From assembly GCA_021776235.1 (NCBI GenBank), contig JAJFGG010000152.1, positions 62,001 through 126,000 of the forward strand: 64,000 nt of DNA. Reading direction: 5' to 3'. The notes below the pieces were generated by a model. The model was given only the letters and a program-made list of their open reading frames with translations, was not told the DNA's origin and made no database searches. Source of the stretch: Alphaproteobacteria bacterium (GTDB lineage Bacteria; Pseudomonadota; Alphaproteobacteria; GCA-2731375). Of this stretch, positions 30,249 to 33,690 are shown one piece after another (the stretch's first letter is position 1; every line of letters begins with the position of its first letter). Position numbers and translations under genes: made by a program.

Positions 30249-31016
30249 TCAGCGGTCCTTGAATTCTGGCGCACGCTTTTCCAGGAAGGCATTGGCCCCT
30301 TCGGTTGCATCCTCGCCCTGGAAGGCCAGGGTGTTCAGATCCCGTTCAATGGACAAGCCTTCCGCCAGGGCGGTGTTATCGGCGCGCATGACCGCTTCCC
30401 GGCCATAGCGCAGGACCGGCAGGGAGAAAGCCGCGAATTCCCGTGCATAAGCAATGGCGCCGGCCACGGCGGGGGTTTCGACCAGCCGGTTGATCAGGCC
30501 CATGCTCAGGGCTTCCTCCGCCGCGACCATGCGTCCGGTCATGACCATGTCCAGGGCCCGTCCCTGACCGACCAGACGGGGCAGGCGCTGGGTGCCGCCA
30601 TATCCCGGGATCAGGCCCAGCTTGATTTCCGGCACCCCCAGTCTGGCGTTCGCCGTGGCCACGCGCAATGTGCAGGCGGTCGCCAGTTCCAGGCCGCCGC
30701 CCAGGGCATAGCCGTTGATGACCGCCACCGAGGGGATGGTCAGACTGTCCAGCTTGGCGAAAGTCTTCTGGCCCAACTCGGTCGCGGCCATGGCCTCGAC
30801 AATGTTGCGGCCCATGAACTCGGATATATCGGCCCCGGCGCAAAAGGCCTTGTCGCCGGCGCCGGTGACCAACAGGGCCCGGGCATCGGATCCGGCGGCC
30901 GCATCAATGGCGGCGCCAATATCCTTGACCACCTGAACGCTCAGGGCGTTCAGTGCTTCCGGACGGTTCAGGGTGATCAGGGCGAATTCTTCTACCCTGG
31001 TGAATTCAACGGGCAT
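30249..31016 (-). CDS. Enoyl-CoA hydratase/isomerase
   Basis: From ATG 31016 ([25 protein letters not shown]), preceded by GGAGGAG, it is 255 aa. [10 protein letters not shown] and [45 protein letters not shown] hold the oxyanion hole and the catalytic Glu (VPEIKLGL); a second Glu-like position is replaced by Gly/Tyr in PGYGG. It should hydrate trans-2-enoyl-CoA. The SDR gene starts 2 bp after its stop. Its 5' flank abuts the palindromic element at 31082-31344, so the promoter of this operon must lie in or next to that element. Confidence 0.93.
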
Positions 31017-31081: not shown

Positions 31082-31344
31082 TAGACCACGTTCACGGAAC
31101 ATAGACCCGTTTGACCGCACTTCCCAGCTTCGTGGCTAGGCGAAGGTTGCCGCGCGTAGTGGGACTACGGGCAAAACCTTCAACGACGCCACGGCGCTGG
31201 GAAGCGCGGCCCTCGGTAGCGCGTGGAGGCCCTTCGGATGCGTTGTTTTGCTTGCCCGTAGTCCCACTACGCGCTGCGCAAAACGCCTACCCGAATGACC
31301 TCCACACGCCATCAAACGGATCTATGTTCCGTGAACGTGGTCTA
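31082..31344. mobile_element. Two-lobed palindromic element, MITE-like, TA-flanked
   Basis: The ends are a 33-bp inverted repeat (31082-31114 and 31312-31344) with one mismatch (31106 against 31320). Inside lie two long imperfect hairpins, 31116-31208 and 31219-31309. Their tips carry the same 23 bp in opposite orientation (31152-31174 and 31252-31274), with core GTAGTGGGACTACGGGC. There is no ORF worth naming. The outermost bases are TA on both sides, so the element proper may run GACC...GGTC (31084-31342) with a TA duplication, as IS630/mariner-type transposases make. It would then be a non-autonomous element. It ends exactly in the stop codon of the patatin gene. Confidence 0.75.
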
Positions 31345-33690
31345 AAGGGCGGCGATCTCGCGGCGCAGATCGGCCAGCAAATCGGCACTTTTGCCCAGGT
31401 GCAGCGCCTCTGAATCCAGGATTGCGGTGAAGGCCCGCTTTTTCATGGCGACCACATCAATGCCGCCCGCCGCGTCCTCCAACTCGGCGCAGTTTATGAC
31501 GATGTCAATCAACCGCTCGGCGCCGTGCAGGCGGCCCCACAAATAGTCGTTCTCGCGATGGCGGCGGCTGAAAAAGGCGGCGAAATGTCCCAGGCCCACG
31601 CCCTTCAGAATTGCCTCGGCACCGCCCCGGTTCAGGCTGTTGGCATCATCAGGCGAGATCCGGTCAACGCGGATTTCATCAAATTCCCCGATGTCGCGCC
31701 ACGACGTAACCGTGAAGGCCAAGACATCCCAGAAGGCAAACCCGATGAAGCTGTTCAACAGGACCTGGCCGGCCTCGGCGGGCAAATCCGTATTGGTCGC
31801 TTGATCAAGCATCTGGTCGACGCGCCGGCTCAGCCCGCTCAAGGCAAAATCGTCAGCCACCAGGCCGATCAGGGCGCCGATGTTATGGTCCCGGCCGGAT
31901 TCAATAGCGGCGGCCATGTCCCGGCAACGGCGGCTAAGCACCGACGCGTCCTGGCAGCGGCGCAGGTCTTCCAACAGATCATAGATCCGCCCTTTCGTCC
32001 GGTCCAGGGCGGCCGCGGTTTCAGAGGCTCGAAAGGTGCCATACATTTCATTCAGGCCGCGCACCACGAAGCGCAACCGGCGGGCCCGGTAATCAGCGTC
32101 CAGGCCGCGTAGAAAGGCCGCCTGTGCCGCGTCTTCGCCGCCGCCATACCGGGGATAGACCCCGGCATCGCCGGCCCAGGTCCGCAGGCGTTCGGCCCAG
32201 CGGTCAATTGCGGCCCGGTCCGCCCGGTGCCCGATGGACCGGGCCAGAATGGTCGCCAATTGCTCGATCACGGCTTCGATCCGCAGGCGCAGATAGCCGT
32301 CGTAGGCATAACCGGATCTGGCCGCCGCCAGGCGGCCGGCCGTGGCCCGCCATTCGGTAATGCGCTCCGTCCGGAACGGCGATGTGCTGGTGTCTCCCAT
32401 GACCTCGGCCACCATTTCGTCAATCCGCGGCATGGCGCTATCCAGCACGGTTTTGAGGCGGTCGACCCGTACGTTGAAACCATGTATCCAATCCAGCTCG
32501 TCGCGGATCGGTTCATTTCTAGGAATGTCCGACAGGGCGCCTTTCAGGGTTCGCAGCATGCTGGGTGCCCGGCGCGGGCTGCCGCCGGCGTTGTTGCCGG
32601 CCTGTTCGGGAGCGGGATCAATATAGACCAGGCGGCGGTCAACCTGACGATAGGCCGGGCGCTGCTTGATGGCGTCGATGGCCTGGGCAAAGGGCTTATT
32701 GTTCAGCACGCTGCCGTCGATAAAGGCGGCGTCTTCCGGGTTCTGCCCGGCGACATCATAGGCGGTAAAATTGTCCGCAAGGAATTGCCTCCGTCTATCC
32801 CAGCGTGCCTTGCGCCGCTCCACCAGACGGTCAATTTCGGCAATACGGGCCGGGGGAAACGCGCCGGGAAAGGACGAGGTCGCTCGTGCGGCGAAAACCA
32901 GAGCCGGCAAATCCGGCGCATCGAAATCGGTGCTCATATTTCCGGCGGAGACATAGCGGTGGCGGAAATGCAGACTATGGCGATGCTCGCGCTCGGTGAC
33001 CATATTTGGGTCATGCAGGGGGATGGGCTGGCTGTAGCCGAAAAAGTCCGTCAGGGTGATATACAGGTCCAGCCATTGGCCGGTGGGCGTCAACGAGGTG
33101 CGCGGGCCTTTGCCGTAGCCCATGGCGGCCATGCCGTCATACAGCGTATCGCACAGGGCCGGGCCGCCGAAAGGCGGGCGAAACCAGCGCGAACGGATGA
33201 ATAAGGACAGCTTATCCCGCATTTCCTGATCCGGGGTCAGACGCGCCATCCTGCGCCGGGTCAGGCCCCAGCGCAGCACTGGGCGCAAAATCCATTTGCT
33301 CCACATGGAGGCCCGGCGGTCCGGGGCCAGCAATTCGGAGACATCCGCCTTGTTCAGCCACATGTCGCGCAATGGATCAAAGGCCAGGTCCAGGGCCAGG
33401 GCCCGGGCCAGCAGAATGCCGTTGATGCCGCCCGCGGAAGCGCCGGCGATGACATCCACCACCACATGCAAATTCAGATGCCGGCCGATGTCATGCAACA
33501 GATCCAGATAGACAGCTTCCGTATCCGTGAAATCGCTGTTGGCGGCCCGGCCGCCCGCTTCGGCGCCGGCCTGATGATCAACCGAGGCCCGGGTCAGTTT
33601 CAGAATTTCCTTGCTGACTCCGTGCATGTAGACGGCCAGCGAAACACCGCCATAACAGACCAGTGCCAGGCGCAATTCCTTTTCCCGCAT
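31342..33690 (-). CDS. Large patatin-like phospholipase
   Basis: The 782-aa protein starts MREKELRLALVCYGGVSLAVYMHGVSKEI, with the glycine-rich oxyanion loop. IAGASAGGINGILLA holds the Gly-x-Ser-x-Gly nucleophile (Ser85) and AAFIDGSVLNNKPF the catalytic Asp (Asp-Gly), the Ser-Asp dyad of patatins. The size and the motif order match the long bacterial patatin-related family rather than the short RssA type. It lacks a signal peptide, so it probably works on membrane lipids from the cytoplasm. Its TAG stop is made from the TA next to, and first G of, the element at 31082-31344; the native C-terminus may have been altered by that insertion. Confidence 0.9.
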   Translation of the reverse strand: MREKELRLALVCYGGVSLAVYMHGVSKEILKLTRASVDHQAGAEAGGRAANSDFTDTEAVYLDLLHDIGRHLNLHVVVDVIAGASAGGINGILLARALALDLAFDPLRDMWLNKADVSELLAPDRRASMWSKWILRPVLRWGLTRRRMARLTPDQEMRDKLSLFIRSRWFRPPFGGPALCDTLYDGMAAMGYGKGPRTSLTPTGQWLDLYITLTDFFGYSQPIPLHDPNMVTEREHRHSLHFRHRYVSAGNMSTDFDAPDLPALVFAARATSSFPGAFPPARIAEIDRLVERRKARWDRRRQFLADNFTAYDVAGQNPEDAAFIDGSVLNNKPFAQAIDAIKQRPAYRQVDRRLVYIDPAPEQAGNNAGGSPRRAPSMLRTLKGALSDIPRNEPIRDELDWIHGFNVRVDRLKTVLDSAMPRIDEMVAEVMGDTSTSPFRTERITEWRATAGRLAAARSGYAYDGYLRLRIEAVIEQLATILARSIGHRADRAAIDRWAERLRTWAGDAGVYPRYGGGEDAAQAAFLRGLDADYRARRLRFVVRGLNEMYGTFRASETAAALDRTKGRIYDLLEDLRRCQDASVLSRRCRDMAAAIESGRDHNIGALIGLVADDFALSGLSRRVDQMLDQATNTDLPAEAGQVLLNSFIGFAFWDVLAFTVTSWRDIGEFDEIRVDRISPDDANSLNRGGAEAILKGVGLGHFAAFFSRRHRENDYLWGRLHGAERLIDIVINCAELEDAAGGIDVVAMKKRAFTAILDSEALHLGKSADLLADLRREIAAL

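Follow-up and report, generated by a model that had tools for sequence, protein, structure and literature searches.

A 263-bp MITE inserted at CTAG beside a patatin-like gene, and its two-lobed hairpin core across the Alphaproteobacteria

Within the window, the whole stretch of 64,000 nt of alphaproteobacterial DNA analysed here, which is contig C60 of a 6.36-Mb assembly, an element of 263 bp separates a patatin-like gene from an enoyl-CoA hydratase gene; the two genes are encoded on the minus strand (Table 1). The element is bordered by terminal inverted repeats (TIRs) of 33 nt that are 97% complementary and encloses two lobes, which are inverted copies of one hairpin of about 65 nt and whose tips, in opposite orientation, are identical at 25 of 26 positions. 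An initial annotation of the locus had described a 33-bp TIR with one mismatch, two hairpins whose tips share 23 bp in inverted orientation, flanking TA dinucleotides and a distance of 65 bp to the start of the enoyl-CoA hydratase gene; the repeat was recovered, the shared stretch of the tips was found to extend over 26 bp, TA is present at both element ends and the likely ATG fits the distance. Folding of these 263 nt, both as single-stranded DNA and as RNA, gives z values of -12.3 and -12.9 against dinucleotide shuffles. Only one open reading frame of the size of 100 aa overlaps the interior of the element, and it looks like a chance frame.

Table 1. Positions of the element, its parts and the adjoining genes in the window
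Feature	Position	Strand	Length or score	Remark
Whole element	31082..31344	none	263 bp	both copies of the TA target duplication included
Left TIR, A-type	31082..31114	+	33 nt	TAGACCACGTTCACGGAACATAGACCCGTTTGA
Right TIR	31312..31344	-		one mismatch to left TIR
Lobe 1	31130..31194	+	75.9 bits	model R1; sense copy of the conserved hairpin
Lobe 2	31232..31296	-	78.7 bits	model R1; inverted copy of the lobe 1 hairpin
Stem arms of lobe 1	31115..31136 / 31188..31209
Inverted similarity between lobes	31134..31174 / 31252..31292
TA target duplication, patatin side	31343..31344			with adjoining C at 31342 (G on minus strand) forms the TAG stop codon
TA target duplication, enoyl-CoA hydratase side	31082..31083
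Patatin-like gene	31342..33690	-	782 aa	stop codon at element border
Enoyl-CoA hydratase gene	30249..31016	-		likely ATG at 31016, 65 bp from element
Overlapping open reading frame	31111..31413		100 aa

Further copies, which the initial annotation had proposed to look for, are numerous. In its own genome the element belongs to a subfamily, termed A, of ten full-length paired copies of 263-264 bp that are 94-100% identical; the nine copies other than the one described here are 94-97% identical, with ends that pair at 263-264 bp, two additional copies at contig ends are nearly complete, and about 55 A-type ends are present in the genome as compared with none for a reversed control pattern. Shorter paired forms of 184, 82 and 46 bp lack one lobe, both lobes or nearly all of the interior respectively, the one-lobe forms of 184 bp being found in several genomes and the no-lobe forms of 82 bp in the own genome. 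A second subfamily, B, is 263 bp long in most copies and has ends (TAGAGCATTTCCGGGCTATTCTGA) unlike those of A, while its two-lobed core agrees with that of A at roughly 70%; about 45 matching places are listed for B in the own genome and 44 in the congener G010. The named relatives with an A end are Rhodospirillaceae MAGs of the SI072 series. The dispersed copies contain no transposase gene, which, together with the long and nearly perfect TIRs, is the make-up of a MITE. Lone A-type ends with apparently unique sequence beyond were observed on eight G000 contigs (L041-L048; C107, C37, C78, C90, C115, C121, C163 and C167); no partner end lies within the stretch read, and these are perhaps truncated copies. 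At L005 (1501-1763), an A copy is situated inside an IS630-type element similar to the one at L056, at its CTAG end, so that CTAG ends of other transposons also serve as targets; the loci L060 and L058 resemble this arrangement.

The orthologous site is devoid of the element in all 10 congeners that possess the patatin gene. In the two congeners that align best past the border, G010 (CTA-TA-AGCCGCGCGCTTGTCCCC) and G006 (CTA-TA-GGCCGGGTGCTTGTCCCC), a single TA is found at this one locus, as compared with two in the own genome (CTT-TA[element]TA-GCCGCGCTTGTCCCC), which identifies the TA as a target duplication, seen at one locus and clear in 2 of the 10 congeners. The inserted DNA, with one TA counted in, therefore amounts to 261 bp, and the patatin gene has a stop codon composed of the target TA and the first G of the element. 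The initial annotation had attributed part of this stop codon to the element, which is correct only for the G of TAG, the TA being duplicated target, and had considered that both genes are possibly altered, which does not hold for the patatin-like protein, as it is unchanged by the insertion. With many genomic copies and an empty orthologous site that carries one TA, its view of a MITE-like element is supported.

Immediately 5' of the terminal TA, A ends carry C in 50 of 52 cases and a pyrimidine in all 52; B ends carry C in 62 and T in 21 of 86, a pyrimidine in 83 of 86, which defines the target as CTAG or YTAR. The assignment of the element at 31082-31344 as a MITE inserted at CTAG is secure. 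The element end coincides with the in-frame TAG stop codon of a long open reading frame in 37 of 64 elements, as compared with 30 of 132 YTAR sites (p 2e-6) and with 31 of 75 other CTAG sites, a small background set (p 0.06); active preference for stop codons was discarded as an explanation, as the docking is mostly accounted for by where CTAG occurs. Restoration of TAG from CTAG provides a simple reason why insertions at gene ends can be tolerated.

The two-lobed core extends far beyond the genus. A model of the lobe hairpin (R1) matches 45 of 385 genomes of the class, in 35 of 276 genera and about 28 families; no more than 13 candidates were scored in any one genome, which makes the copy numbers minimum values. 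Among the loci examined, the order is almost always sense lobe first and antisense lobe second, lobe starts are about 102-106 nt apart in most loci and the elements mostly measure 263-273 bp. Irregular members were observed as well: the linker between the lobes is longer than usual in L295 and L296, the latter a 311-bp member (1304-1614) in which a short GCCGCATCGGAT-like unit is repeated and enlarges the tip region, and L288 (1186-1566) is an irregular array of four lobe matches on alternating strands, one strong and the others weaker. Fourteen-mer matches in viral contigs look like chance, with none of the 80 loci tested fitting the lobe model. The family is apparently undescribed, as no earlier account was found in the open-access literature, subscription journals being largely outside that search.

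The TIRs that surround this core vary and comprise many kinds of TAGAGC... ends, TAGACC..., TAGCCCGSATTTCTCACCA, TAGCACCC... and TACCAA.... The end TAGCCCGSATTTCTCACCA, which is unlike the TAGAGC ends, is common to members from several families (L302, L303, L305 and L310) and may point to another IS group. Between the consensus sequences of A and B, the outer TIR (positions 5-26 and 238-259) agrees at only 32-36%, whereas agreement reaches 90-100% in the adjoining inner TIR and in the segment that separates the lobes; within the lobes, agreement is about 64-86% in conserved parts and 25-45% in the covarying outer stems. Because the boundary of identity is sharp and the end types are unrelated, exchange of TIRs between lineages is tentatively favoured over rapid divergence. 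Lobes may also mix between subfamilies, as one lobe of a B-ended element (L061) has a tip that resembles those of A.

Both the genus and the class at large contain IS630-type elements of 1052-1062 bp with ends CTAGAGC..., the transposase of which was found with PF13358. The end of one such element (L229, TAGAGCATTTCCGTGTTATTCTGA) agrees with the B TIR at 22 of 24 positions and that of another from a congener of the same genus (L091, TAGAGCATTTCCGACTTACTCTGA) at 20 of 24, so that IS630 appears well founded as the mobiliser of subfamily B, although a shared TIR is no proof that the transposase acts on the MITE ends. For A, the best single IS end agrees at 17 of 24 positions, which is not convincing. 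A search of the family with PF13358 and the A-end pattern recovered no transposase with A-type ends, and no A-ended element was found via the L091 transposase in 15 genomes of the order and the class matches examined (385 class genomes), a result to be read in the light of the frequent loss of multi-copy IS elements from MAGs. The full-length IS630-type element with the same ends that the initial annotation had suggested seeking was thus found in closely similar form for B and not for A. No match was found in plasmids. In the own genome a single IS630-type transposase was found (L056:1-1259). It is apparently frameshifted into two frames, and its element was rejected as the mobiliser of A, as its ends CTAGTACTCCGCATCAT and CTAGTGGTCTGAATCAT are unrelated to A ends.

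IS630 itself prefers CTAG. For A, we infer an IS630 mobiliser because this subfamily has its core in common with B, duplicates TA and targets CTAG. An IS630-type transposase is very likely the mover, and the entire reading of a MITE moved by such a transposase is held with good confidence. The interpretation in the initial annotation is thereby supported; it had missed the class-wide two-lobed core, the varied TIRs, the covariation, the preference for CTAG and the unaltered protein.

The covariation was assessed on 52 full-length A and B elements, in which 51 of 87 pairs show compensatory change and 97.0% of cells are paired, as compared with 80.8% in shuffles and 35-41% in controls with slid partners. 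In the lobe hairpin, 19 of 22 pairs are compensatory, and while the lobe stems change, unpaired AGG, AA and AAC positions are kept. In a diverse lobe set with 20 pairs predicted on both strands, GU cells outnumber AC cells by 58 to 16, and by 27 to 5 with one lobe per locus, and in 50 of 54 lobes of this set it is the sense strand that folds better. The alignment behind these counts was fitted to a model that had itself been built on the fold of the sense strand; an independent MAFFT alignment of 35 lobes gave 41 to 6 at 19 common pairs. In the TIR stem, GU and AC number 40 and 28. When the recent copies of A and B are taken by themselves, the whole element and lobe 1 show no imbalance between GU and AC, in part owing to the mirrored lobes, which cancel each other; the evidence for a strand asymmetry thus comes from the diverse set. 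Sites in double-stranded DNA would give about equal numbers, and the surplus of GU suggests that selection acts on a single-stranded fold, be it RNA or single-stranded DNA, in which G-T wobble is tolerated too. The interior of the element is likely a selected module.

On this basis a mechanism can be proposed. The element inserts at CTAG with duplication of TA, and the enzyme that moves it in trans is most likely a DDE transposase of the IS630 family that recognizes the TIRs; insertion into a C-TAG stop codon spares the protein, as the TA and the first base of the element, a G at either end, rebuild TAG. The interior is a module of its own, in which the hairpin of about 65 nt is present twice in inverted orientation, so that a transcript of either strand carries the sense copy first and the antisense copy second. 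The sense hairpin would act as single-stranded nucleic acid, most likely within the 3' terminal part of the mRNA from the gene upstream; there the hairpin, folded and independent of orientation, might be bound or processed and keep insertions tolerable, and the module would be kept while the TIRs change by lineage to suit the available transposases. We infer that selection acts on the RNA and not on the DNA, and that the benefit lies in tolerance or mRNA processing; an RNA role of the lobes, taken by itself, is put forward tentatively. The broader proposal, that many different transposons have carried a structured, mirror-duplicated hairpin module with exchangeable TIRs between their ends and so distributed it among the Alphaproteobacteria, parasite-like on several transposases and with an RNA or single-stranded DNA function of its own, is likewise possible and offered with reserve.

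Covariation and the asymmetry of GU and AC are also compatible with a role of the lobes of this MITE in transposition or replication, in which they would function as hairpins of single-stranded DNA and might be recognized by a second enzyme or by a host factor linked to replication; the mirrored duplication would present the same hairpin on either template strand, and the one-lobe and zero-lobe derivatives resemble hairpin deletions during replication. On the other hand, the 184-bp one-lobe and 82-bp no-lobe forms indicate that full lobes may be dispensable for movement, and IS630/mariner chemistry is not known to require single-stranded hairpins, so that this explanation seems rather unlikely. 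Template switching within a palindrome can restore pairing without selection, and many truncated copies and solo ends are present, as expected of an ordinary decaying MITE with functionless lobes, the palindromy of which is kept only by arm-to-arm correction in hairpin replication. Such correction yields no excess of GU over AC, though, and the conservation of the unpaired positions along with one geometry across about 28 families with differing ends also speaks against decay, which we regard as unlikely.

The two inverted hairpins, and the GTAG that precedes the hairpin in many B lobes, would be compatible with a REP/REPIN doublet moved by a RAYT tyrosine transposase instead of an IS630-type enzyme, a very improbable reading given TIRs of 24-33 bp, the TA duplication, the CTAG target and a tetranucleotide that varies class-wide between GTAG, CTAG, CAAG and CCAG. 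A strong fold directly after a stop codon might equally suggest a fixed regulatory RNA or terminator of the patatin/enoyl-CoA hydratase locus. The locus is, though, empty in 10 of 10 congeners and copies are numerous elsewhere, the reverse of the sole copy conserved at its locus that the initial annotation had named as the opposing case; no intrinsic-terminator or promoter pattern was found in the element, and no Rfam family was assigned at curated thresholds to eight loci with A, B and class-wide elements, with weak chance matches only elsewhere. As the origin of the element, a fixed RNA or terminator is refuted, and as a reading of the locus it is scarcely credible; a secondary role of the element in mRNA processing is possible. 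With the preferred reading of a selected module, the family makes it testable whether a bacterial MITE carries a structured module under selection between transposase systems, and also what the hairpin does after stop codons, where many copies sit.

Among known repeats, RUP of pneumococcus, a gene-less element of 107 bp with a 9-bp TIR, TIRs like those of the IS630 family and TA ends, is moved by IS630-Spn1 (PMC2229807). The present family is likewise short, gene-less and TA-ended, but differs from RUP, as described, by its length of 263 bp, its TIRs of 33 bp, a conserved pair of mirrored hairpins and one core combined with many TIRs. With the Correia/NEMIS elements of Neisseria, of about 107 and 155 bp with TA ends, a long TIR, a fold-back structure, size variants with or without an internal segment, an IHF site and proposed RNase III processing (PMC2229807), it shares TA ends, long TIR, fold-back and size variants, although length, interior and hosts are, by description, different. 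The CIR repeats of Caulobacter and Brucella, about 110 bp long and without TIR, have a conserved GANTC, TA ends and, in an RNA model, two arms with a linker (PMC2229807); occurrence in Alphaproteobacteria, TA ends and two arms joined by a linker are common to both, but, set against the description of CIR, the TIRs, the length of 263 bp and the absence of GANTC in 39 of 52 copies set the family apart. REP, BIME and REPIN sequences, tagged pairs of short stem-loops often located downstream of genes, have been attributed to RAYT transposases (PMC3733652). They resemble the present elements in their short hairpins as an inverted pair and are distinguished by the TIRs, the TA duplication and the variable tag found here, with no conserved GTAG or CGTC at the hairpin foot. 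With the IS630 family itself, the elements have in common the TA duplication, the CTAG target and, for B, TIRs similar to the IS ends, while IS630-type elements are of about 1.05 kb with a transposase gene, as opposed to a gene-less MITE of 263 bp. While MITEs are usually seen as deletion remnants of IS elements with an irrelevant interior, here the interior is conserved and the ends differ.
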